A stretch of DNA of 10,415 nucleotides from Desulfobulbus sp. (lineage in GTDB: Bacteria > Desulfobacterota > Desulfobulbia > Desulfobulbales > Desulfobulbaceae), in NCBI GenBank assembly GCA_030602145.1, contig JAUWAH010000043.1:1-10415 (forward strand), in the 5' to 3' direction. Numbering within the stretch: position 1 is the stretch's first letter; each line of letters starts with the position of its first letter. The position numbers and the translations under genes were made by a program. This document shows, in pieces, positions 1-10,415 of the stretch. The notes below the pieces were generated by a model. That model made no database searches, was not told the DNA's origin, and saw only the letters and a program-made list of their open reading frames with translations.

Positions 1-1615
1 CGAGGGAATTGAAGATCGACAGGACCATGATCACCGGGATGAGCACCTTGCTCGCCTTGAAGAGAAAGGCCTTCAGCCGGTCGTAGGAACGGAGCAGGAC
101 CGAGCGCACCGTGGGCAGGTGGTAGGGCGGCATCTCCATGATGAAGGGGGTGACTTCGCCCTTGAGCAGGGTGTTCTTCAGGATCAGTCCGGTGAGCACG
201 GCAAAGCCGATGCCGATCAGGTAGAGGAGAAAGACCAGATTCTGGCCGCCGGTGGGAAAAAAGGCGGCGGCAAAGAGCGCATAGACCGGCAGCCGGGCTC
301 CGCAGGACATGAAGGGATTCATCATGATGGTCAGAATGCGGTCGCGCTCGTTTTCCAGGGTGCGGGTGGCCATGATGGCCGGCACGTTGCAGCCGAAGCC
401 AACCAGCATCGGCACGAAGGCTTTGCCCGGCAGGCCGATGAAGCGCATGAACCGGTCCATGACAAAGGCGGCCCGGGCCATGTAGCCGGAATCCTCCAGA
501 AAGGACAGGCAGAGAAACATGAAGCCGATGGGCGGGATGAAGGTGGCCATGGTCTGGAGGCCGCCGCCGATGCCGGTGGCCAGCACGGCGATCAGCCACT
601 GGGGTGCGCCGAGAGCGCCGAGCAGCTCGGACAGGCCGTCCACGAAGAGGGCGCCGGCCAACTGATCGAAAAAGTCGATGAAGGCGCCGCCCAGGTTGAT
701 GGTGAACATGAACACCAGGTACATGGCGAGGAGAAAAACAGGAATGCCGAACAGCCGGCTGAGCACCACCCGGTCGATCCGGTCGGAGAGGCTGCTGCTC
801 ACCCGGCCATCGCGCTTGACCAGATCCCGAAGCAGCCAGGAGACAAAGCCGTAGCGGGCCGAGGCGATGATGATGTCCGCTTCCTCCTCCAACGCCTCCT
901 CGATCCCGGTCCGCAGGGAGGCGATCAGGTCCAGGGTGGCCTGGCCGATGGGAACAACGGCTCCGGCCTGCGGATCGCCCTCCAGCAGCTTGAGGGCAAG
1001 CCAGTAGGGGTCGATCTTCTTGGCGGCGCAGGCATCCTGCAGTTCGGAGGCCAGCTTTTCCCTGGCCGCCTGCACCGGTTCCGGATAGATCAATTCCGCG
1101 GCGGCCGTGGCAGGTGAGGCGGCGGCGGCGAGGATCACCGCCTTGAGTTCGTCGATGCCCTTGTTCTTGGCGGCGATCACCGGCACCACCGGACAGCCGA
1201 GCCGCCCGGCAAGTCCCTTCACGTCGATGGCCAGCCCCTTTTCCTTGGCCATGTCCATCATGTTGAGGACCAGGACCAGGGGGGCGCCCATTTCCAGCAA
1301 CTGGCTGGTGAGGTACAGGTTGCGCTCGATGTTGGCGGCATCGACGATGTTGACGATCAGGTCCGCCTCCCGGGAAAGCACGAAATCACGGGCGACCTGT
1401 TCATCCAGGCTGGAGGCGGCCAGGGAATAGATGCCGGGGGTGTCGATCACCTCGACGGTGTGACCATCGTCGCGATACCAGCCGGTCTTACGGTCCACCG
1501 TCACCCCGGGCCAGTTGCCGACCTGCTGCTTGGCGCCGGTCAGGCAGTTGAACAGGGTGCTCTTGCCGCAGTTGGGGTTGCCGACCACCCCGATGGTATA
1601 CTGCTTGCCGCTCAT
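1..1615 (-). CDS. feoB: Ferrous iron transport protein B (FeoB), C-terminus cut by window edge
   Basis: FeoB is the inner-membrane Fe(II) importer: a cytosolic G-protein domain fused to a polytopic membrane domain. About 538 codons are visible and the frame runs off the window at base 1; family members are usually roughly 650-780 residues, so the last membrane segments are missing. The G domain is intact: P-loop GNPNCGKTT at residues 12-20, the G3 motif DTPG followed by IYSL, the G4 motif NMMD, and an AAKNKG G5-like segment. A hydrophobic membrane region follows from about residue 280, including the hallmark GFGCNVPAIMATRT and then NPFMSCGARLPVY. The ATG shares an ATGA overlap with the stop of the upstream feoA, indicating translational coupling. 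It is the last visible gene of a feoA-feoA-feoB operon transcribed away from nifE. Family assignment is secure; only the 3' end is unknown. Confidence 0.97.
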   Translation of the reverse strand, partial: MSGKQYTIGVVGNPNCGKSTLFNCLTGAKQQVGNWPGVTVDRKTGWYRDDGHTVEVIDTPGIYSLAASSLDEQVARDFVLSREADLIVNIVDAANIERNLYLTSQLLEMGAPLVLVLNMMDMAKEKGLAIDVKGLAGRLGCPVVPVIAAKNKGIDELKAVILAAAASPATAAAELIYPEPVQAAREKLASELQDACAAKKIDPYWLALKLLEGDPQAGAVVPIGQATLDLIASLRTGIEEALEEEADIIIASARYGFVSWLLRDLVKRDGRVSSSLSDRIDRVVLSRLFGIPVFLLAMYLVFMFTINLGGAFIDFFDQLAGALFVDGLSELLGALGAPQWLIAVLATGIGGGLQTMATFIPPIGFMFLCLSFLEDSGYMARAAFVMDRFMRFIGLPGKAFVPMLVGFGCNVPAIMATRTLENERDRILTIMMNPFMSCGARLPVYALFAAAFFPTGGQNLVFLLYLIGIGFAVLTGLILKNTLLKGEVTPFIMEMPPYHLPTVRSVLLRSYDRLKAFLFKASKVLIPVIMVLSIFNSL

Positions 1616-1851
1616 GACTGCACCTCCCGGACCAGCAGCACCCTGGCCTCGTCCCGGCGCAGGCTGAGGCTGAAATCCCGAACCATGATCTCCACGGGGT
1701 CGCCCATGGGCGCCACCCGGATCACCTTGAACGGGGTGCCCTTGAGCAAACCCATGGCCAGCAGTTTGTGCCGATAGCCGCCGCTTTCCCTGGCAAAACC
1801 GACCACCATGCCGGACTGGCCGACATCTATGTCACTGAGCGTTTTTTCCAT
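1612..1851 (-). CDS. feoA: FeoA-domain protein (proximal copy)
   Basis: A 79-residue FeoA, a small SH3-like cytosolic protein that supports FeoB-dependent Fe(II) uptake. The sequence shows the family core: an N-terminal LSDIDVGQSGMVVGF strand region, then GYRHKLLAMGLLKGTPFKVI (the conserved 'L..MGL..G' signature), then a GDPVEIMVRDFSLSLRRDEA segment ending in a beta-rich tail. Length is typical of stand-alone FeoA (about 75-90 residues). The start at 1851 is set by a TAATG junction with the preceding feoA copy. A weak purine-rich stretch (AAAGGTAGGG) lies just upstream inside that gene, so expression probably relies on coupling. Its stop overlaps the feoB start by four bases. A longer in-frame start further upstream would run through the other feoA in a different frame and is not credible. 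Confidence 0.93.
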   Translation of the reverse strand: MEKTLSDIDVGQSGMVVGFARESGGYRHKLLAMGLLKGTPFKVIRVAPMGDPVEIMVRDFSLSLRRDEARVLLVREVQS

Positions 1852-2132
1852 TACCCTACCTTTGTCACGTTTATCTTGTGGGCCATGCCGCCGCCGAGAC
1901 CGTATCGGCATCCCGATTTCTCGATGAGCACGGCACCGTTTTCCTGTTTGTGGACCACCAGGATCTCGTCCTCGACGCTGATCCCCATGCTGAGCAGCCG
2001 CTCCCGCAGCATGCAGCCGCCGCGCAGGCCGACCACCCTGACCCGCTCGCCCTCCCCGGCAAGGATGAGGGGAAAGGAGCCGACCTGGGTCGGCTGGGTC
2101 ACGGGGGGGGCGATGGTGGATGAGTGGCTCAT
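1851..2132 (-). CDS. feoA: FeoA-domain protein (distal copy, first gene of feo operon)
   Basis: A second FeoA-type protein of 93 residues, promoter-proximal in the feo operon. After a short polar, Pro/Thr-rich N-terminus, the fold core is visible: EGERVRVVGLRGGCMLRERL, then LLSMGISVEDEILVVHK (equivalent to 'L..MG...G..i.v'), then a C-terminal GLGGGMAHKINV segment that resembles the conserved 'R.G...A..I.V' FeoA ending. The start at 2132 is preferred because AAAGGAA sits 5-6 bases upstream; the alternative ATG at 2267 would add a Pro/Arg/Cys-rich extension unlike FeoA and would cover the promoter region. It is clearly diverged from the downstream feoA, so this is not a recent duplication. Two FeoA proteins ahead of one FeoB is a recurrent arrangement in anaerobic bacteria; the distinct roles of the copies are not known. 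Confidence 0.9.
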   Translation of the reverse strand: MSHSSTIAPPVTQPTQVGSFPLILAGEGERVRVVGLRGGCMLRERLLSMGISVEDEILVVHKQENGAVLIEKSGCRYGLGGGMAHKINVTKVG

Positions 2133-2215
2133 GTTCCTTTGCCTGTCTTCTGCTGGATGTGGCCGGGGCTGGGGGGAGTCGGGCCGGAGCACCTCTCCGG
2201 CACAGCACCGCCTTT

Positions 2216-2239
2216 CTAAGTTAGCATCCCCAAACTTAG
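2216..2239. promoter_or_regulatory. Inverted repeat, candidate operator of the feo operon
   Basis: CTAAGTT (2216-2222) and its exact reverse complement AACTTAG (2233-2239) form 7-base arms around a 10-base centre. The same stretch holds a near-direct repeat, TTAGCAT (2221-2227) and TTAGGAT (2236-2242), offset by 15 bases. It lies at the predicted start of feo transcription, where a repressor would block the polymerase. An iron-sensing regulator of the Fur or DtxR/IdeR type is the natural candidate for an feo promoter. The arms do not match the classic Fur box; the TTAG/CTAA content is closer to DtxR-type sites, but this is inference. Confidence 0.4.
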
Positions 2240-2245
2240 GATAGT

Positions 2246-2274
2246 CAAATACAATGCGTTGGTCCAAATGTCAA
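2246..2274 (-). promoter_or_regulatory. Candidate sigma70-type promoter of the feo operon
   Basis: Reading the minus strand, a perfect -35 hexamer TTGACA (2274 to 2269) is followed, after exactly 17 bases, by TATTTG (2251 to 2246), which matches three of six -10 positions. This predicts a transcription start near 2239 and a leader of about 107 bases before the first feoA start at 2132. A second TTGACT lies at 2248-2243 but has no good -10 behind it. Placement upstream of the only minus-strand operon supports the call; the weak -10 is the main doubt. Confidence 0.45.
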
Positions 2275-2512
2275 CCAAATCCATAAAAAAAATAAAGGAC
2301 GCCTCAAACAACCGTCGAGCAGGGGGCCACAGGAGGTGATATCAACCCGCAGAACGGTCAAGCAGTCCCGACATCGACCCTGGCCGCCCTGATTTCAGCC
2401 ACTTACCCGGATCGGCGCCCCTCTGGATCCCGGCCTGCTCTTGATCCGCTCCCCTGCCTGTACGGCCCGATGAGGCCGAGGGTCGACACTTGTGTATCAC
2501 CCTCTTCATTTT

Positions 2513-2528
2513 TGTTCAGGTATCGACA
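2513..2528 (+). promoter_or_regulatory. NifA upstream activator sequence
   Basis: TGT (2513-2515), ten bases, then ACA (2526-2528) is an exact match to the TGT-N10-ACA site bound by NifA, the enhancer-binding activator of nif promoters. Its centre lies about 120 bases upstream of the transcription start predicted from the -24/-12 element, inside the usual working distance. A single copy is present in the intergenic region. The motif alone is short, but its position with an IHF site and a sigma54 element makes chance unlikely. Confidence 0.75.
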
Positions 2529-2572
2529 CAATCCTGCCCCTCCCCCTCCCCCAGCCTTGGACAAACAAAACG

Positions 2573-2585
2573 CAACGTCTTGATA
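2573..2585 (-). promoter_or_regulatory. Integration host factor (IHF) binding site
   Basis: On the minus strand TATCAAGACGTTG matches the IHF consensus WATCAANNNNTTR at every defined position. It sits between the NifA site (2513-2528) and the -24 element (2613), where IHF classically bends the DNA to bring NifA into contact with sigma54 polymerase. A-rich DNA flanks it on the downstream side (2585-2605), also typical of IHF sites. Confidence 0.65.
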
Positions 2586-2612
2586 CAAAAGGATAAAAAG
2601 AAAAACGTCCAT

Positions 2613-2629
2613 TTGGCACGCATCTTGAC
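2613..2629 (+). promoter_or_regulatory. Sigma54 (-24/-12) promoter of the nifENB operon
   Basis: TTGGCACG at 2613-2620 is a perfect -24 element; after the correct spacing TTGAC (2625-2629) stands where TTGCW is expected, so the -12 GC is GA. The predicted transcription start is near 2640, about 30 bases before the nifE ATG at 2670. Together with the upstream NifA and IHF sites this gives a standard NifA-dependent promoter. The off-consensus -12 base may lower basal activity. Confidence 0.8.
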
Positions 2630-2669
2630 TTGGCAAAGGTAACCAGATCACCTAGCCAGGGAGCCCCAC

Positions 2670-4016
2670 ATGGAAGCCATCGCATTGAAAGATCGAGAAA
2701 ATCAGATTCACGTCAAGGGCGAGGCGCCCTTTGACATCGTCTGCAACAAGGACAGCCTGGCCGGGGCGGTCAGTCAGCGGGCCTGTGTGTTCTGCGGTTC
2801 GCGGGTGGTGCTCTACCCCATCGCCGACGCCCTCCACCTGGTGCATGGCCCCATCGGCTGCGCGGTCTACACCTGGGACATCCGCGGCGCCCTGTCCTCG
2901 GGTCCGGAGTTGCACCGCCTCTCCTTTTCCACCGATCTGCAGGAAAAGGACGTCATCTTCGGCGGTGAAAAGAAACTGGCCGCCGCCCTGCGCGAGTTGA
3001 TCGAACGCCATTCCCCCAAGGCCGCCTTTGTCTATTCGACCTGCATCGTCGGCATCATCGGCGACGACCTGGAAGCGGTCTGCCGCGAGGCTGAGGCCGA
3101 ATGCGGGATTCCGGTCATTCCGGTCAAGTCCGAAGGCTTCAAGGGCAACAAACGGGCCGGCTACCAGGCGGCCTGCGACGCCCTCTTCCGGCTGATCGGC
3201 ACCGGCGACACCACCGGCATCTCCAAATACTCCCTCAACATCCTGGGCGACTTCAACCTGGCCGGCGAGATCTGGATGATCCGCGAATACTATGAGCGCA
3301 TGGGCATCGAGGTGGTGGCCAACATCACCGGCGACGGCCGGGTGGCCGACATCGAGCGCGCCCACGGAGCCGCCCTCAACGTGGTCCAGTGTTCGGGGTC
3401 GACCATGCAACTGGCCAACATGATGGAAGAAAAATATGGCATCCCCTCGATCCGGGTCTCCTACTTCGGCATCGAGGACATGGCCGAGGCCCTCTACGAC
3501 ATCGCCCGCTTCTTCAAGGACCCTGCGATGATGGAGCGCACCAAGAAGATCGTCGAGGAGGAAGTGAAAAAGCTGGCCGTGGCGCTCGAACCCTACCGCA
3601 GGGCCCTGGCCGGCAAGAAGGCGGCCATCTATGTGGGCGGCTCGTTCAAGGCTTTCTCGCTGGTCAAGGCCTTTCGGTTGATCGACATGCAGGTGGTCAT
3701 GGTCGGCTCCCAGACCGGCACCAAGGAAGACTACATCGAGCTGGAGGCGATCACCGACCCCGGCACCGTCATCGTCGACGACTCCAACCCGCTGGAGTTG
3801 ACCACCTTCCTCAAGGAGAAGGAAGTGGACGTATTCGTCGGCGGCGTCAAGGAACGGCCCATCGCCTACAAGCTGGGCATAGGATTCTGCGACCACAACC
3901 ACGAGCGCAAGGAGGCCCTGGCCGGATTCGAGGGCATGCTCAACTTCGCCCGCGAAGTCTACTCCTCGGTGATGAGCCCGGTCTGGCAGTTCGTGCCGCG
4001 CAAAAAAAACAACTGA
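2670..4016 (+). CDS. nifE: Nitrogenase FeMo-cofactor scaffold protein NifE
   Basis: NifE (448 residues) is the alpha subunit of the NifEN scaffold, on which NifB-co is converted to the FeMo-cofactor before transfer to NifDK. Length is normal. The N-terminus has the family block SQRACVFCGSRVVL, then LVHGPIGCAVYTWDIRG; Cys39, Cys64 and Cys125 (in YSTCIVG) correspond to the NifE ligands of the bridging [4Fe-4S] cluster. Cys241 in NVVQCSGS aligns with the position of the NifD cofactor cysteine. The C-terminal block CDHNHERKEALAGFEGM (from about residue 407) is characteristic of NifE; NifD would show different cofactor-pocket motifs such as the HSWDYSGPYHG-type segment. AGGGAG at 2658-2663, six bases before the ATG, sets the start. 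First gene of the operon, directly behind a sigma54/NifA promoter, 56 bases before nifN. Confidence 0.97.
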   Translation: MEAIALKDRENQIHVKGEAPFDIVCNKDSLAGAVSQRACVFCGSRVVLYPIADALHLVHGPIGCAVYTWDIRGALSSGPELHRLSFSTDLQEKDVIFGGEKKLAAALRELIERHSPKAAFVYSTCIVGIIGDDLEAVCREAEAECGIPVIPVKSEGFKGNKRAGYQAACDALFRLIGTGDTTGISKYSLNILGDFNLAGEIWMIREYYERMGIEVVANITGDGRVADIERAHGAALNVVQCSGSTMQLANMMEEKYGIPSIRVSYFGIEDMAEALYDIARFFKDPAMMERTKKIVEEEVKKLAVALEPYRRALAGKKAAIYVGGSFKAFSLVKAFRLIDMQVVMVGSQTGTKEDYIELEAITDPGTVIVDDSNPLELTTFLKEKEVDVFVGGVKERPIAYKLGIGFCDHNHERKEALAGFEGMLNFAREVYSSVMSPVWQFVPRKKNN

Positions 4017-4072
4017 GCATTCCCTGCGGTCGAGATGACAGCACAATGTCCGTATAACGAAGGAACAACGCC

Positions 4073-5458
4073 ATGAGCACCAATCCGCCCACCTTCAAGA
4101 AGACCAAAAAACCCAACGCCATCTCCACCACCAATGCCTGCAAGCTGTGCAAGCCGCTCGGCGCCTGCCTGGCCTTCAAGGGCATCGAAGGCGCGGTGCC
4201 CTACCTGCACGGTTCCCAGGGCTGCGCCACCTACATGCGGCGCTACATCATCAGCCATTACAACGAGCCCATCGACATCGCCTCCTCCTCGCTCTCGGAG
4301 AAGCACGCGGTCTACGGCGGCGGCCCCAACCTCAAGCTCGGCCTGACCAACGTCGCCGCCAAATACCGCCCAGCTCTGATCGGCATCGCCACCACCTGCC
4401 TGACCGAGACCATCGGCGACGACGTGGCCATGTATCTGCGCCAGTACGCCGAGGACACCAAGGGTTCGGTGGGGCTGCCCACCTTCGTCAATGTGTCCAC
4501 CCCCAGTTATTCAGGCACCCACATGGAGGGGTTCCATGCCGCCATCCGCGAGGTGGTGGCCCAGTTGAGCGAGGGCGGGCCACGCAGCGAGACGGTCAAT
4601 GTCCTGCCGGGATTCGTCAGTTCCGCCGACTTTCGCCTCCTCCATGAGATCATGGCCGACTTCGGCCTGGACGCCACCCTGCTGCCCGACCTGTCCGAAA
4701 CCATGGATGGTCCGGCCCTGCTCGAATACGAGAAGATCCAGCAGGGCGGCACCCCCCTGGCCGACATCAAGGCCATGGGCCGGGCCAGGGCCACCATCGA
4801 GTTCGGGCCGACGCTCGGCGCCATGCGCACCGGCGGCGACGTGCTCGCCGAAAAATTCGCCACGCCGCTGCACCGGATCGGCATGCCCGTCGGCATCCGT
4901 GAGACCGATGTTTTTTTTCATCTGCTGGAAGAACTGAGCGGCCGGCCGATGCCGGAGAAGTACGCCAAACAGCGCGGCCGCCTGGTCGATGCCTACGTCG
5001 ATGGTCACAAGTACGTCTTCGGCAAGCGGGCGGTCATCTACGGCGAGGAGGATCTGGTGGTCGGGCTCAGCTCGTTTCTCACCGAGATCGGCGTCCAGCC
5101 GGTGCTCTGCGCCTCGGGCTCCACCTCGGGCCGGCTCACCGAGGCCATCGCCCGGGTGACCGGCGACACCCTGGCCGAACAGCCGCAGGTCTTCGAAGGC
5201 ATGGATTTCTACGAGATCGACGAGATGGCCGCACAGATGGATATCGATCTGGTGGTCGGTCATTCCAAGGGATATCCGCTGGCCAAGAAACTGAATATCC
5301 CGCTGATCCGGGTCGGCTTTCCCATCCATGACCGGATCGGCGGCCAGCGGATCCTGCATTTGGGCTACAGCGGTGCCCAGCAGTTGTTTGACACCGTGAC
5401 CAACGCCCTGATTGAAAAGAAGCAGAATGATAGCCCGGTCGGCTACTTCTACATGTGA
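4073..5458 (+). CDS. nifN: Nitrogenase FeMo-cofactor scaffold protein NifN
   Basis: NifN (461 residues) is the beta subunit of the NifEN scaffold. The N-terminal region KLCKPLGACLAFKGIEG followed by YLHGSQGCATYMRRYI is the NifN/NifK-type signature; Cys51 in HGSQGC is the expected NifN ligand of the [4Fe-4S] cluster at the NifE interface. TTCLTETIGDDV and the FVNVSTPSYSGTHMEGF segment follow, then the C-terminal GFPIHDRIGGQRILHLGYSG block. The SQGC/CLAFKGIEG context and the pairing with nifE favour NifN over NifK, which also would normally follow nifD and be longer at about 510-520 residues. AAGGA at 4060-4064 lies eight bases before the ATG. The 56-base spacer after nifE shows no terminator, so the two are probably co-transcribed. 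Confidence 0.96.
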   Translation: MSTNPPTFKKTKKPNAISTTNACKLCKPLGACLAFKGIEGAVPYLHGSQGCATYMRRYIISHYNEPIDIASSSLSEKHAVYGGGPNLKLGLTNVAAKYRPALIGIATTCLTETIGDDVAMYLRQYAEDTKGSVGLPTFVNVSTPSYSGTHMEGFHAAIREVVAQLSEGGPRSETVNVLPGFVSSADFRLLHEIMADFGLDATLLPDLSETMDGPALLEYEKIQQGGTPLADIKAMGRARATIEFGPTLGAMRTGGDVLAEKFATPLHRIGMPVGIRETDVFFHLLEELSGRPMPEKYAKQRGRLVDAYVDGHKYVFGKRAVIYGEEDLVVGLSSFLTEIGVQPVLCASGSTSGRLTEAIARVTGDTLAEQPQVFEGMDFYEIDEMAAQMDIDLVVGHSKGYPLAKKLNIPLIRVGFPIHDRIGGQRILHLGYSGAQQLFDTVTNALIEKKQNDSPVGYFYM

Positions 5459-5489
5459 GCAATTCGCCATTGCGACAAAGGAGCCTGTC

Positions 5490-6767
5490 ATGCCCAGCGA
5501 CAAAGATTTTTCCCGTCATCCCTGTTTCAACGTCGACGCCAAGGGGCAGTTCGGTCGGGTCCACCTGCCGGTGGCGCCGAAGTGCAACATCCAGTGCAAT
5601 TACTGCAACCGCAAGTTCGACTGCGTCAACGAGTCGCGGCCCGGGGTCACCTCGACCCTGCTCAGCCCGGAACAGGCCCTGGTCTACGTCGACAAGGTGG
5701 TGGAGAAGGAACCGCGCATTGCGGTGGTCGGCATCGCCGGCCCCGGCGATCCCTTCGCCAACCCCGACGAAACCCTGGAGACCATGCGGCTGATCCGCGC
5801 CCGCCACCCGGAGATGATCCTCTGTCTCTCCTCCAACGGCATGAATCTGGCCCCGCATGTGCCGGAACTGGCCGAGATCGGCGTCTCCCACGTAACCATC
5901 ACCATCAACGCGGTGGATCCGGAGATCAGCCAACACATCTATGCCTGGGTTCGCGACGGCAAGGTCCTCTATCGCGGCCGCCAGGGTGCCGAACTGCTGC
6001 TCGCCCGCCAGTTGCAGGCGATCCAGTTGCTCAAGGAGCATGGCATCACCGTCAAGATCAACACCATCGTCATCCCCGGCATCAACGACCACCACATTCC
6101 GGTGCTGGCCGCCAGGATGAAGGAGCTGGGCGTCGACCTGCTCAACTGCATGGCTATGTTTCCCAATGCCGATACCGGATTCGAGCATATCGACGAGCCG
6201 AGCAAGGAGATGATGGAAGCCCTCCGCGCCGAGGCCGAACAGTTCCTGCCGCAGATGCGCCACTGCACCCGCTGCCGGGCCGATGCGGTCGGCCTGCTCG
6301 ACCAGGACAAGACCGACGAGATGCGCGGCTGCCTCTCCGCCTGCGCCCAACTGCCCAAGCCGGAGGAGACGACCCGCCCCTACGTCGCCGTGGTGACCAT
6401 GGAAGGCGTGCTGGTCAATCAGCATCTGGGCGAGGCGACCCGCTTCCAGATCTGGGGCGAAGATGGTCAGGGCGGCTACCGCCACATCGAGGACCGGCCG
6501 GCTCCGCCCGCCGGCGGCGGCAGCCAGCGCTGGCTGCACATCAGCCGGCTTTTGGCCGACTGCCGGGCCATCCTGGTCAACGATCTGGGCGATTCGCCCA
6601 AGGAGATGCTGAAAAAACGCGGTATCCAGCCGATCACCATGGCCGGCTTCATCGAACGCGGCCTGGAGGCGGTGTACACCGGCAAGGGGCTTGCCACCCT
6701 GCAGGGCAGGATGCGCAAATGCTCGTCAAAAGGCGCCTGTGCCGGCGGCGGGAACGGCTGCGGCTGA
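5490..6767 (+). CDS. nifB: Nitrogenase cofactor biosynthesis protein NifB (radical SAM, with fused NifX-like domain)
   Basis: NifB fuses two [4Fe-4S] units and inserts carbide to make NifB-co, the 8Fe core of the FeMo-cofactor. The 425-residue product starts with the conserved HPCFN (residues 10-14), then the radical SAM motif CNIQCNYC with Cys32, Cys36 and Cys39, followed by the NifB-specific NRKFDC...NESRPGVTS segment. A CTRCRADAVGLL block closes the radical SAM part. From about residue 296 (RPYVAVVTMEG, NQHLGEA) runs a C-terminal NifX/NafY-like cofactor-binding domain, ending in a Cys/Gly-rich tail (CSSKGACAGGGNGCG). The fused form is the usual bacterial NifB; many archaeal NifBs lack this domain. 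The start at 5490 is chosen because AAAGGAG at 5477-5483 lies six bases upstream; an in-frame ATG at 5412 lies within nifN and has no family support. A 31-base gap follows nifN. Confidence 0.98.
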   Translation: MPSDKDFSRHPCFNVDAKGQFGRVHLPVAPKCNIQCNYCNRKFDCVNESRPGVTSTLLSPEQALVYVDKVVEKEPRIAVVGIAGPGDPFANPDETLETMRLIRARHPEMILCLSSNGMNLAPHVPELAEIGVSHVTITINAVDPEISQHIYAWVRDGKVLYRGRQGAELLLARQLQAIQLLKEHGITVKINTIVIPGINDHHIPVLAARMKELGVDLLNCMAMFPNADTGFEHIDEPSKEMMEALRAEAEQFLPQMRHCTRCRADAVGLLDQDKTDEMRGCLSACAQLPKPEETTRPYVAVVTMEGVLVNQHLGEATRFQIWGEDGQGGYRHIEDRPAPPAGGGSQRWLHISRLLADCRAILVNDLGDSPKEMLKKRGIQPITMAGFIERGLEAVYTGKGLATLQGRMRKCSSKGACAGGGNGCG

Positions 6768-6820
6768 TCGCCCCCCTTTGATCGCCGCACCGCCCGCCGC
6801 TCGTGGCGCAGGGTCGGGAT

Positions 6821-6863
6821 CGGAAGGCCGTTTCCGCACCCCGTGCCCCCGTTGCGCCAACGG
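6821..6863 (+). other. Two short hairpins in the nifB-cassette spacer
   Basis: CGGAA (6821-6825) pairs with TTCCG (6832-6836) around a 6-base loop, and CCGTTG (6849-6854) pairs with CAACGG (6858-6863) around a 3-base loop. Neither is followed by a T run, so they do not look like Rho-independent terminators. They could stabilise or mark processing of the transcript between nifB and the next genes. In G+C-rich DNA short stems are common by chance. Confidence 0.3.
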
Positions 6864-6893
6864 CCTGCACCGGTCCTCTTGGAAGACGCATCC

Positions 6894-6909
6894 GGGGCGC
6901 AACATTGCT
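6894..6909 (+). promoter_or_regulatory. Possible weak sigma54 element before the three-gene cassette
   Basis: GGGGCG (6894-6899), five bases, then TTGCT (6905-6909) keeps the invariant GG and GC of a -24/-12 promoter at the correct spacing and has a perfect -12 half. The -24 half is otherwise poor. It lies about 70 bases ahead of the ATG at 6981. I see no TGT-N10-ACA activator site in the spacer, so an independent nif promoter here is only a possibility; read-through from nifB is just as likely. Confidence 0.25.
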
Positions 6910-6980
6910 GACTCCAGCCGCGCTCCATCGGGCCCTTGCCAGCGGTACCTTCACCTTCCCACAACCCCAACGAACCGATC

Positions 6981-8204
6981 ATGCCCTCGATCCATCTGGA
7001 CCTCTCCGTGCAGGACTGCCTGAGCCTCTTTCCCCAGACCCTGCCGGTGTTTCAACAGTTCGGCTGCCACGATTTCGACGACCCCCAGGTTCGGGAAAAG
7101 CTCGGTCCGTTCGTCAAACTCCGGACCCTGCTGGCCGTCAGGCGCATCGACGCCCAATCGTTTCTCGATCGGTGCCATGAGAGGCTGAGCCCCGCACCCG
7201 ATCAGCCGGAACCGGGGGATCTCCACGGCGCCAAACCGACCCTGCTGGCGCTGCTGCCCTGCGGGCTCAAGGTGTCCCTCGACCGTGCCCTATACGATTT
7301 CAGCGAAGAACTCGCCCGGGGCGGCGCCCCGCTGGCCTACCTGGCCGAGGGCAACGTCAACCACGAGCTGTCCTACTCCCCCTACATCGACGCGGTGGAA
7401 TCGGTGGACGAACTGCCCGACCTGATCCTCAGTTCGGACATCAACGGGTTCTACCACCGCCGCTTCCTGGAACGGTTCCTGGCCCCCGGCCACTTTGTCA
7501 GCGTCAACGGGCCGATGGCGCCGCGCATGGCCGAAATCGGCCTGGCTGATCCCAAAGGCCATTTCACCATGTTCTGCACCAACGCCCTGGTCGTCGTCCG
7601 GGTCAGGGATATCAAACCCCATGTGCCCACCCCGGAGGCCTGGGCCGATCTTCTTGAGCCGGGCTTTCACAAGGCGATCATCCTGCGCGGCCAGAATGAC
7701 TTCTTCTGCTCGGCCGTGCTGACGCCCCTGTTCAGACTCTACGGCCGGGCGGCCGTGGAGCGCCTGGCGGCCAACGTCTGCGATGGCCTCCATCCGGCCC
7801 AGATGGTCAAGATGATCGACGCCCGTGCCGCGAACTGCCCGCCGCTGTTCGTCATGCCCTGGTTTTTCGCGCAGAAGATCAAGGCCAGGGAGCGGGTCGA
7901 GATCCTCTTTCCCCGCGAAGGAGCCTTCATCAGCCCGGTGCAGCTCCTGGTGAAACGGGAGAAGCGTGCCGCCCTGGCCCCGGTGATCGAATTCCTCATG
8001 GGCCGCACGCTCCACCAGCATTGCAGCGACACCTACTTCCCCACCCCGCACCCCGAGGTGGCCGACAAGCTGCCCGAGGGCGCGGGCCTGTTCTGGATCG
8101 GCTGGGATTTCATCTACGACAACGACCTTGAGCGGATCAAAAAGGAACTTGGCGAGACCTTCACCGCCGAATACCGGCGCACCGGAGGAGGGACATGCAA
8201 CTGA
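6981..8204 (+). CDS. Cytoplasmic substrate-binding-protein-like protein with N-terminal DUF1858-like domain
   Basis: A 407-residue protein I cannot name. Residues 1-65 form a small helical domain (LSVQDCLSLFPQTLPVFQQF pattern, then a Leu-rich pair of helices) resembling DUF1858/ScdA-N-like domains. From about residue 80 the sequence looks like a type 2 periplasmic-binding-protein fold of ABC importers: an LLALLPCGLKVSL opening, PDLILSSDINGF, a HKAIILRGQNDFF segment, and VEILFPREGAFISPVQLLV followed by KREKRAALAPVIEFLMG, typical of the C-terminal part of iron/molybdate-type binding proteins. There is no signal peptide, lipobox or membrane segment, so it should stay in the cytoplasm. I chose the ATG at 6981 because the domain begins right there; no good ribosome binding site is visible, and a TTG at 6936 would add 15 unstructured residues. 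It overlaps the next gene by ten bases. Its ligand is unknown; molybdate, a thiolate metal species or a cofactor precursor would fit the nif context. Confidence 0.72.
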   Translation: MPSIHLDLSVQDCLSLFPQTLPVFQQFGCHDFDDPQVREKLGPFVKLRTLLAVRRIDAQSFLDRCHERLSPAPDQPEPGDLHGAKPTLLALLPCGLKVSLDRALYDFSEELARGGAPLAYLAEGNVNHELSYSPYIDAVESVDELPDLILSSDINGFYHRRFLERFLAPGHFVSVNGPMAPRMAEIGLADPKGHFTMFCTNALVVVRVRDIKPHVPTPEAWADLLEPGFHKAIILRGQNDFFCSAVLTPLFRLYGRAAVERLAANVCDGLHPAQMVKMIDARAANCPPLFVMPWFFAQKIKARERVEILFPREGAFISPVQLLVKREKRAALAPVIEFLMGRTLHQHCSDTYFPTPHPEVADKLPEGAGLFWIGWDFIYDNDLERIKKELGETFTAEYRRTGGGTCN

Positions 8205-8884
8205 TCACCGTGGCCGGCCCGCCGTCGAGCGGCAAGACCTCGGTGCTCCTCAAGGCCCTGGAATGGCTGCGGGCCGAGGCCGTCCGGGCCGGGGTGATCA
8301 AGTTCGACTGCCTGGTCGCCGACGACGACCAGGCCTACCAAAACGCCGGCGTGCCGGTGCGCAAGGGGCTTTCCGGGGTGCTCTGCCCGGACCATTACTT
8401 CGTCAGCAACATCGACCGGGTGCTGGAATGGTCGAGTGCGCAGCAACTGGCCATGACCCTGATCGAAAGCGCCGGCCTGTGCAACCGCTGCTCACCGCAC
8501 ATCAAGGGGCTGCTGGCGGTGTGCGTGCTCGACAACGTCAGCGGCCTGCAAACCCCTCGAAAGATCGGCCCGATGCTCAAGCTGGCCGACATCGTGGTGA
8601 TCACCAAGGGTGACATCGTCAGCCAGGCCGAGCGCGAGGTCTTTGCCTTCCGGGTGCAGAGCGTCGCTCCGCGCGCCCGGATCGTCCAGGTAAACGGCCG
8701 CACCGGCCAGGGTGCGCAGGCACTGGCCAGGCTGTTGCGCGCCGCGCCGCACCTGGAGGGCGACGGCGACTCGCTGCGGCTGCGTTTTCCCATGCCGGCG
8801 GCGCTCTGCTCCTACTGCCTGGGCGAGACCCGGGTGGGGCCGGACTACCAGATCGGTCAGTTCCGCAAGCTGGACATCGACTGA
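8195..8884 (+). CDS. HypB/UreG-type (SIMIBI) GTPase with paired CxxC motifs
   Basis: A 229-residue P-loop NTPase. The Walker A motif is GPPSSGKT (residues 8-15). VIKFDC with Asp38 and an acidic ADDD follow, like the region after the P-loop in HypB and UreG. IESAGLCNRC (90-99) aligns with the 'IENVGNLVCP' switch region of HypB, and TKGD (137-140) stands in for the NKxD guanine-specificity motif. Cys64 and His67 (CPDH) lie where HypB has its metal-binding Cys-His pair. Cys96/Cys99 and a C-terminal CSYC at 205-208 add more potential ligands. HypB and UreG insert nickel into hydrogenase and urease, so a metal or metallocluster insertase role is plausible here, but no hydrogenase or urease gene is nearby. 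A strong GGAGGAGG at 8184-8191 precedes the ATG, which overlaps the previous stop by ten bases. Related alternatives are a CobW-like or ArgK-like GTPase; the HypB likeness is best. Confidence 0.75.
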   Translation: MQLITVAGPPSSGKTSVLLKALEWLRAEAVRAGVIKFDCLVADDDQAYQNAGVPVRKGLSGVLCPDHYFVSNIDRVLEWSSAQQLAMTLIESAGLCNRCSPHIKGLLAVCVLDNVSGLQTPRKIGPMLKLADIVVITKGDIVSQAEREVFAFRVQSVAPRARIVQVNGRTGQGAQALARLLRAAPHLEGDGDSLRLRFPMPAALCSYCLGETRVGPDYQIGQFRKLDID

Positions 8885-8955
8885 CGGCCGGAACAGCCCG
8901 CAGTGCAGCACAAGCTGGCAATTGTTGTCCCATCGAGAAGACCAAGAGAGAGACC

Positions 8956-9987
8956 GTGCAACCGCTCGACCGTGAACGCCTCCATCGACACAGCCTCGCC
9001 GACCTGCTGATCGAGTACCCCTTGCTCGAATCCGCGCTCCTGGAAGCGGGCATCGAGTTCGATCCCGACGAGCAGACCACCCTGCCCGCCCACCTGGCCC
9101 GCTGGGCCGAGGTGCACGGACAGTCGGCCGACTCCTTTCTGGCCCGGCTGATCGAACGGATCGACGAACTCAACCGGCTGCTCGGCCCGGCCACTTCCAT
9201 GAAACGGCTTTCGATCGTCGCCGGCCGCGACAAATCGGGCCGCGCCGAAACGGTTGCCGGCATCGAACTCAACCGGGGCGACCTGCTGGCCATCGTCGGC
9301 CCGACCGGCTCGGGCAAGAGCCGGCTCCTGGCCGACATCGAGTGGCTGGCCAGCGGCGACACCCCCAGCGGCCGACGGATCCTGATCGACGGCCGGACCG
9401 CCGAAGACAGACGGTTCGCCTTCGGCGGCGACCGGATGATCGCCCAGCTCTCCCAGACCATGTCCTTTGTCCTCGACGCCACGGTCGAGGAACTGCTCGC
9501 CCTGCACGTGGAGAGCCGGGGACTGGCCGCGGGGCTGGTTGAGGACGTGATCGAGGCGGCCAACGGCCTATCGGGCGAGCCGTTTTTCCGGCACACCCCC
9601 CTGACCGGCCTCAGCGGCGGCCAGACCCGGGCCCTGATGGTGGCCGACACCGCCCTGGTCTGCCGCTCGCCGATCGTGCTCGTCGACGAGATCGAGAATG
9701 CCGGCATCGACCGCCGGGCCGCCTTCAATCTGCTGCTCGCCCAGGAGAAAATCGTCCTCTCCGCCACCCACGACCCCCTGCTGGCCCTGCTGGCCCCCCG
9801 GCGGCTGTGCATGCGCCACGGCGCCATGCATTCGCTCCATCGGCGCACCCCCGAAGAAGAGGCCATCCTTGCCGACCTGGAAACCCTGGACGATCTCCAC
9901 GGCGCCCTGCGCAGCCAGCTTCGCCTCGGCGCCCGACTCACCCCCCTCGGCGCCCTGCACCACAGGAGGAACCCATCATGGCCATGA
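8956..9987 (+). CDS. Soluble ABC-type ATPase with N-terminal DUF1858-like domain
   Basis: A 343-residue ATPase. Residues 1-70 are a small helical domain (SLADLLIEYPLLESALLEAG, then TLPAHLARWAEVHG...FLARLIERI) matching the DUF1858 pattern and resembling the start of the gene two places upstream. The ABC domain follows complete: Walker A GPTGSGKS at 115-122, a Q-loop region AQLSQ at 163-167, signature LSGGQ at 219-223, Walker B IVLVDE at 240-245, a D-loop-like NAGID, and the switch histidine in SATHD (His272). There is no membrane segment and no permease gene beside it. The tail after about residue 280 is helical and charged. The start is a GTG at 8956 with a weak GAGAG ahead; no in-frame ATG exists upstream, and the domain begins at this codon. 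It lies 71 bases after the GTPase and overlaps the next gene by ten bases. Substrate unknown; remodelling or metal-cluster handling in the cytoplasm fits better than plain transport. Confidence 0.75.
   Translation: MQPLDRERLHRHSLADLLIEYPLLESALLEAGIEFDPDEQTTLPAHLARWAEVHGQSADSFLARLIERIDELNRLLGPATSMKRLSIVAGRDKSGRAETVAGIELNRGDLLAIVGPTGSGKSRLLADIEWLASGDTPSGRRILIDGRTAEDRRFAFGGDRMIAQLSQTMSFVLDATVEELLALHVESRGLAAGLVEDVIEAANGLSGEPFFRHTPLTGLSGGQTRALMVADTALVCRSPIVLVDEIENAGIDRRAAFNLLLAQEKIVLSATHDPLLALLAPRRLCMRHGAMHSLHRRTPEEEAILADLETLDDLHGALRSQLRLGARLTPLGALHHRRNPSWP
9964..9970 (+). promoter_or_regulatory. Ribosome binding site deciding the nifO-like start
   Basis: AGGAGGA lies seven bases before the ATG at 9978 and thirteen before a second in-frame ATG at 9984. 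The spacing favours 9978, although the later ATG would make a tidy ATGA coupling with the stop of the ATPase gene. Confidence 0.7.
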
Positions 9988-10415
9988 CCATCCGTTTCTT
10001 TGCAAAACCCCACTGCACCGGCAACGCCCGGCAGCAAGCCATTCTCCTTGCCGCCGGTCACCGGCTGATCATCGAAAACATCCTCACCTACCCCTTCACC
10101 GGCGAGGAACTGCGCTCCTTTTTCGGTGCCCTGCCGGTGGTCCATTGGTTCAATCACCTGGCGCCTGCGGTCAAATCGGGACAGCTCGACATCCGGGCCA
10201 TGGACGAGGACCAAGCCCTGGAGGCCATGCTGGCCGACCCGCTGCTCATCCGCCGTCCCCTCATGGAGATCATGGGGATACGGATCGCGGGCTTCAATAT
10301 CGAGGAGTTGGAACGGATCGGGGTCAGTTGCAGGGACAATCCGAGACTGCGCCTGCTGACCGGGGCGGATCTGGAGGGGTGCCCGGGGGATGCGACGGGG
10401 CTTCGCTGCGACACC
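9978..10415 (+). CDS. nifO: Nitrogenase-associated ArsC-family protein (NifO-like), C-terminus cut by window edge
   Basis: The frame is open from 9978 to the window end (146 codons), so the 3' end is missing, probably only slightly. It belongs to the ArsC/Spx thioredoxin-fold family, in the subgroup found only beside nif genes (the 'nitrogenase-associated protein' family, NifO). Markers are CTGNARQQAILLAAGH with Cys13 at the redox position, FFGALPVVHWFNHLAPAVKSG, and ADPLLIRRPLMEI, which contains the RRP motif conserved in ArsC-type proteins. The N-terminal CTGN differs from the CGTSR of true arsenate reductases. Its molecular role is not settled; NifO has been linked to molybdenum or cofactor partitioning in diazotrophs. 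It is translationally linked to the ATPase gene by a ten-base overlap, tying the three-gene cassette to the nif operon. Confidence 0.9.
   Translation, partial: MAMTIRFFAKPHCTGNARQQAILLAAGHRLIIENILTYPFTGEELRSFFGALPVVHWFNHLAPAVKSGQLDIRAMDEDQALEAMLADPLLIRRPLMEIMGIRIAGFNIEELERIGVSCRDNPRLRLLTGADLEGCPGDATGLRCDT

Follow-up and report, generated by a model that had tools for sequence, protein, structure and literature searches.

A conserved cytosolic trio of binding protein, GTPase and ABC ATPase behind nifB in Desulfobulbus, a candidate molybdenum-trafficking module

Metals reach their enzymes by several described routes. Those closest to the system presented here are nickel insertion by HypA/HypB and UreE/UreG, the nitrogenase protein NifQ, the ModABC and MolBCA importers, the FbpA-type ferric-binding proteins and the SufC/SmsC-type ATP-binding cassette (ABC) ATPases of Fe-S assembly. 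In Azotobacter an operon beginning with nifB contains nifQ (excerpt of PMC4465626), and NifQ is reported missing from Paenibacillus, Clostridium, cyanobacteria and Frankia (excerpt of PMC4761190). Here we describe three consecutive genes of Desulfobulbus sp. (GenBank assembly GCA_030602145.1, contig JAUWAH010000043.1, positions 1 to 10,415; this whole stretch of 10,415 nucleotides is called the window). They encode a substrate-binding protein (SBP), a GTPase and a soluble ABC ATPase, together called the trio. We see about an even chance that the trio traffics metal in the cytosol as a module without a permease, driven by nucleoside triphosphates (NTPs), and that the window's branch of the family handles molybdenum, possibly tungsten, here for the iron-molybdenum cofactor (FeMo-co).

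The trio resembles each of these systems in part. The fold of the GTPase and the position of its metal motif (CPDH, CPH in UreG) recall the nickel insertion proteins, and one branch of the family has a small HypA-like protein, but the GTPase falls far below the HypB and UreG cut-offs, a cytosolic SBP and a soluble ABC ATPase are added, and the window's branch occurs with molybdenum or nif genes. NifQ shares the place beside nifB and the proposed role, but it has no sequence kinship with the trio, which consists of three proteins, would be NTP driven and also occurs away from nif. ModABC and MolBCA are frequent neighbours, and in relatives mod genes stand behind nifB in the trio's place, whereas the trio has a GTPase and neither a permease nor an exported SBP. 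The FbpA-type fold is found in SBP residues 83-401, but the SBP is cytosolic, carries an N-terminal DUF1858 domain and has Phe-Phe instead of the Tyr-Tyr iron ligands. SufC and SmsC are likewise soluble ABC ATPases of cofactor assembly, but the ABC ATPase of the trio has a DUF1858-like N-terminal domain, no SufBD partners are encoded in the locus and the fold match is unspecific. By the features tested, the trio is neither an ABC importer nor HypB, UreG, NifQ or FbpA, and would be most like an NTP-driven metallochaperone set. No published name for it was found in the open-licence papers searched.

Three soluble proteins encoded together

A preliminary description, made from the DNA alone, had recognized an SBP without a signal peptide, a HypB/UreG-type GTPase and a soluble ABC ATPase with no membrane protein among them, and Pfam and hydropathy both agree. 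It had also placed them between nifB and an ArsC-family gene, and both flanking genes, the latter as TIGR01616, score above their cut-offs (Table 1). The three open frames are co-directional; the SBP gene runs 10 nucleotides into the GTPase gene, and the ABC gene overlaps the nifO-like gene. No transmembrane segment or signal peptide was detected in the three proteins, because the highest Kyte-Doolittle mean over 19 residues is just 1.47. An exported start of the SBP was not found either, even when its frame was extended upstream to the TTG at 6936.

The SBP matches SBP_bac_6 with 201.5 bits and DUF1858 with 31.9 bits, marginally below the cut-off of 32.2. DUF1858 begins at residue 4, and a hydrophobic N-terminal stretch is absent. 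The predicted structure has a pLDDT of 90.3. A profile alignment sets NTYYIG of 1y4t opposite ..PlFFA.. of the SBP, so that the FbpA iron ligands are replaced, and Phe295-Phe296 is invariant across 90 relatives. At E 0.1 the SBP had no NCBIfam match, ModA (TIGR01256) included. Its N-terminal domain is homologous to that of the ABC ATPase (hhalign 95.8%, E 7e-9; at most 0.2% for three controls).

The GTPase belongs to the cobW/HypB/UreG family (PF02492, 44.2 bits, gathering score 20.7) and is neither HypB (TIGR00073, 49.2 bits, cut-off 121.2) nor UreG (TIGR00101, 28.3 bits, cut-off 204.2). Among 127 sequences GPPxxGKT is kept in 124, CPDH, which aligns with the CPH of UreG, in all 127 and TKGD in 121; the guanine motif is thus TKxD rather than NKxD, a variant that we take to occur in signal recognition particle GTPases. 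The sequence supports a G3E-type metallochaperone GTPase. The ABC ATPase matches ABC_tran with 46.5 bits, and its relatives keep Walker A (119/125), LSGGQ (124/125) and the H-loop (123/125). Its model is structurally near CbiO and SmsC2 among many others, an unspecific match.

The SBP and the ABC ATPase come from transporter superfamilies, and modAB or FecCD genes often lie near loci of the window's branch. We nevertheless consider an SBP-dependent importer with a permease such as ModB encoded elsewhere very improbable. The signal peptide is absent, the three-gene set is conserved with no permease in between, a G3E GTPase sits in its middle, and 119 of 125 ABC proteins have DEIENAGID at the Walker-B/D-loop position, which differs from what we take to be the usual sequence. 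Searches by tblastn (E 1e-3) with ModB, FecCD, ModA, MolA, ModE and Mop references gave no match in the window or in the loci of five Desulfobulbus relatives (D. elongatus L002, D. rhabdoformis L003 and L251-L253); this negative covers permeases of the ModB and FecCD types and not other families, and two of the loci, the window and that of D. rhabdoformis, are short. Within this scope no permease partner was found nearby, and one just beyond the window is rejected for the relatives checked.

Homologue searches found full-length relatives of all three proteins; for the GTPase and for the ABC ATPase, more than 6,000 among the 8,000 scored candidates listed pass E 0.001. When named genomes were scanned with the GTPase profile and the best 80 of 490 confirmed loci were taken, all three genes were present in 74, the remaining six being interrupted by contig ends. 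Of 135 loci, 114 have the genes in the order SBP-GTPase-ABC and one in the order GTPase-ABC-SBP; the others are incomplete, mainly at contig ends or where the SBP is not recognized in far relatives. Since the genes are nearly always together and their order is kept, chance or misannotation is ruled out. The family occurs in Bacillota, Fusobacteriota, Spirochaetota, Bacteroidota, Acidobacteriota, Cloacimonadota and others, and a plasmid search with a Methanosarcina SBP returned one Fusobacterium record (31%). To judge from these sequences, the trio is an old and widespread module of many anaerobic phyla and not a nif oddity.

Two branches with different neighbours

The SBP tree (145 rows) has two sides, divided with support 100: M with 67 rows, to which the window belongs, and S with 78. 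The GTPase tree is broadly concordant (window clade 99, S clade 97, second M clade 85); where L151-L153 and L158-L160 belong is uncertain, as they have long branches. The best 80 of 490 named loci are mostly of the S branch, and a nif-only machine is rejected for that reason. In 43 of these 80 (L004-L076, e.g., L012:11730-11972) the ABC gene is followed by a gene for a small Cys-rich protein with an MH-E/D start, a zinc ribbon and a weak HypA match (E 0.0007-0.0012, below cut-off), possibly a mini-HypA partner. Near the trio in the same best 80, Hcp (>200 bits) was found in 15, NrfA in 3 and Rrf2-type regulators in 7. Hcp genes adjoin or lie near the S-branch trios of L008, L025, L031, L036, L054, L079 and others, some with Rrf2 or Crp/Fnr-type regulators. 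Neither the small protein nor Hcp was found at any of 28 dereplicated M loci. One genome, G202, bears both kinds, with one copy next to nifH and another with the small protein and NrfA. An origin of the trio within nif is not supported: the three genes do stay together, but the link to nif is confined to one branch.

The S-branch partner, with its HypA-like features, and the kinship of the GTPase to HypB and UreG could point to delivery of nickel or another divalent metal in the style of HypA/HypB, the nif context being a hitch-hike. Also, in L199 hypF (5183-7477, minus strand; TIGR00143, 790 bits) immediately follows an M-branch trio. We find this improbable, as the M loci sit with molybdenum genes and lack the HypA-like partner, and their anion-type pocket residues differ from those of the S branch. 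Arg236, Cys243 and Asn127 occur in 11 of 11 nif-linked SBPs checked, whereas S-branch SBPs mostly have Pro/Phe at positions 236/243.

The neighbours of the S branch would also fit a role in supplying or repairing a complex iron cluster, that of Hcp in the S branch and of nitrogenase here, for instance after nitric oxide damage. DUF1858 genes elsewhere are described as nitrate or NnrR regulated (excerpts of PMC6282519 and PMC6710368), the SBP fold is closest to ferric-binding proteins, and CbiO and SmsC2 are among the many structures near the ABC model. A conserved gene behind nifO in L154 and L251-L253 (L154:12318-13547, L251:5607-6833, L253:4730-5956) looks flavodiiron-like by eye. We hold such an iron or Fe-S module to be unlikely, because Hcp is out of reach at all 28 M loci, the Tyr-Tyr pair of FbpA aligns with the invariant Phe-Phe, and mod, Mop, ModE, MoeA and AOR neighbours are left unexplained.

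The molybdenum reading draws on these neighbours. Within 11 kb of the SBP gene, nif or molybdenum genes were found for 14 of 28 dereplicated M SBPs and for none of 63 S SBPs; locus L140 contributes two of the 28. BtuF/FecCD neighbours were left out of this strict count because NCBIfam does not settle their substrate; with them the M figure is 15 of 28 (Fisher against S, 6.8e-10), and looser cut-offs give 16/28 against 1/63 (L042). Six loci of the Desulfobulbus type have a nif context (the window, L002=L154, L003 and L251-L253). In Pelosinus and its kin (L056, L192, L193, L197 and L198), nif, the trio, Mop and modAB form a single stretch, the Pelosinus Mop scoring 63.1 bits (TIGR00638, cut-off 55). 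The trio stands with nifHDK and a nifB-like gene in L069 (Desulfuromonadales), with nifH in L140, and with a nifB-like gene and nifV in L143, where a 95-amino-acid protein (L143:8593-8880; no Pfam match over the 90 residues scanned) is encoded between nifV and the trio.

Molybdenum genes also accompany nif-free M trios: ModE, FmdE and a molybdopterin-domain protein in L142; MoeA, MoaD and AOR at 8-10 kb in L157; mod genes in L194, L195, L218, L219 and L044. In L202 the trio, in the order GTPase-ABC-SBP, is divergent from an operon with a Mop-like gene and a molybdenum cofactor (Moco) riboswitch (RF01055; L202:6820-6941, minus strand), which precedes a 556-amino-acid protein without a Pfam or NCBIfam match. 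At the Rfam gathering score the first nine M loci, the window included, had no riboswitch, and the next 7 yielded the Moco riboswitch of L202; none of this type was seen in 8 further loci or in 8 S loci. The presence of the M branch beside molybdenum genes without nif speaks against an organic or metal-organic ligand of the SBP, such as homocitrate or metal-citrate for FeMo-co. In addition, MctA does not stand out from the other rows in Z, and nifV is a usual nif gene, so we rate such a ligand as quite unlikely.

In the class of Pelosinus, 20 genomes have an M-type SBP (at least 44% identity); NifH is above cut-off in 19 of them and in 55 of the 180 others. We give this co-occurrence little weight, because the 20 genomes are related to one another and the NifH family includes paralogues. 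All 11 of the trio-bearing or related genomes that were searched have an ordinary ModA, and molybdate import is therefore already provided for. At L254 the gene two places upstream of the M trio is NifO-like (TIGR01616, 101.6 bits, cut-off 109), and 20 kb of this locus showed no nif gene. L254 (9192-9380) and L156 (12016-12204), both of the M branch, share a conserved 62-amino-acid protein encoded upstream of the SBP gene. The diverged trios of L144-L150 (family f43) adjoin an NRAMP-like metal transporter or a CyuA-like gene and have Cys/Ala at pocket positions 236/243.

The nif locus of Desulfobulbus

The window (G000:C242) comes from a genome that is 72% complete in 481 contigs, and its features are given in Table 1. 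The nifN-like gene owes its label to its position after nifE; against the nifK profile it scores 316.8 bits, likewise below cut-off. The NifX-like domain of the nifB product is PF02579 at residues 309-396.

Table 1. Features of the window
Feature	Position	Strand	Evidence
feoB and two feoA genes	2-2126	-	Divergent from the nif operon
NifA upstream activator-like site, TGT-N10-ACA	2513..2528	+	Sole match in the window (chance expectation 0.79)
Sigma-54 -24/-12-like promoter, 1 mismatch	2614..2628	+	Pattern match
nifE	2670..4016	+	TIGR01283, 641.2 bits (cut-off 505.1)
nifN-like gene	4073..5458	+	TIGR01285, 310.8 bits (just under cut-off 326.8)
nifB with C-terminal NifX-like domain	5490..6767	+	TIGR01290, 391.6 bits (cut-off 343.65)
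Cytosolic SBP, DUF1858 + SBP_bac_6	6981..8204	+	407 amino acids; Pfam, fold model
HypB/UreG-like G3E GTPase	8195..8884	+	229 amino acids; CPDH, CNRC and CSYC motifs
Soluble ABC ATPase, GTG start, DUF1858-like N-terminal domain	8956..9987	+	343 amino acids
nifO-like gene (ArsC family), truncated by the window end	9978..10415	+	TIGR01616, 133.8 bits (cut-off 109)

Taken alone, the sigma-54 pattern is weak, because at up to two mismatches the window has 15 matches where 12.0 are expected. Such a site (0-1 mismatch) lies 56-60 bases upstream of nifE in all five loci where the start of this gene could be read, and TGT-N10-ACA stands about 100 bases above it in three (the window, L003 and L251) and not in L154 or L253. 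Upstream of the SBP gene a sigma-54-like site was seen only in L253, with 2 mismatches. Between 2127 and 10415 the plus strand showed no terminator-like site. The conserved sites before nifE and the lack of a terminator over this range suggest that nifE through the trio may form one NifA/sigma-54 operon.

Among 23 genomes of the genus, nifB occurs in 10 (9 above cut-off) and the SBP in 5, all five nifB positive and with the copy directly behind nifB (Fisher 0.0075), in the order nifE-nifN-nifB-SBP-GTPase-ABC-nifO. In the family (59 genomes), nifB is above cut-off in 33 and the GTPase is present in 5. The earlier placement in a nif operon holds for this genus but not for the family as a whole. 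We read 21 trio-less nifB loci of the family, L161 among them. Mod genes lie downstream of nifB in 10 (ModA or ModB above the NCBIfam cut-off in L225, L226, L227, L229, L230 and L234; ModA above it and ModB at 176.1 against 182.6 in L161) and not in 11, two of which reach a contig end right after nifB. The trio thus occupies the slot where relatives keep molybdate transport, a test that by itself is not significant (Fisher 0.057). NifQ (PF04891) had no match in the three trio proteins or in the incomplete window genome.

Possible function and significance

The preliminary description had suggested molybdenum loading in nitrogenase maturation. Loading remains the best fit, because the window's branch is tied to nif and molybdenum genes, but a nif machine is too narrow a name. 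In the scheme that we infer, from the cargo and the sequence of transfers to the recipients and the use of the nucleotides, the trio would be co-transcribed with nifENB from the NifA/sigma-54 promoter. The SBP cleft would hold a molybdenum species, and the ABC ATPase, docking with the SBP through the twin DUF1858-type domains, would drive loading or release. The G3E GTPase might hand the metal over via its CPDH and Cys-x-x-Cys sites, feeding NifEN/NifH for FeMo-co, which is the job of NifQ elsewhere.

Several points weigh against this. The SBP fold is not singled out as ModA-like, and Arg236/Cys243 are missing in four SBPs with a molybdenum context (L044, L195_11311, L218 and L219). Half of the dereplicated M loci (14/28, including two groups in family f43) have no nif or molybdenum gene within 11 kb, in a count whose references were drawn partly from M loci and whose samples are non-random, and at one S locus, L042, weak ModA/ModB matches are encoded nearby. 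The trio is missing from 5 of the 10 nifB-positive genomes of the genus and hence is not essential for molybdenum nitrogenase. Strict replacement of NifQ is not borne out, because NifQ is also missing from G445, which has nif and no trio, and is present in the trio-bearing genome of L069.

More tentatively, and with less confidence than in the molybdenum-trafficking module itself, the family may represent a class of metallocentre machine that has no name so far. A formerly periplasmic SBP would have become cytosolic and, via the shared DUF1858 adaptor, been joined to the G3E GTPase and the ABC ATPase. One branch would work with the mini-HypA on a target near Hcp, and the other would be a dedicated molybdenum or tungsten donor, which might explain how FeMo-co is fed with molybdenum in some NifQ-less anaerobes. 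Annotation of the genes as parts of an 'ABC transporter' masks a conserved cytosolic system. For molybdenum processing in diazotrophs without NifQ, the trio is a concrete and deletable candidate, and culturable carriers are available in Desulfobulbus elongatus, D. rhabdoformis and Pelosinus fermentans.

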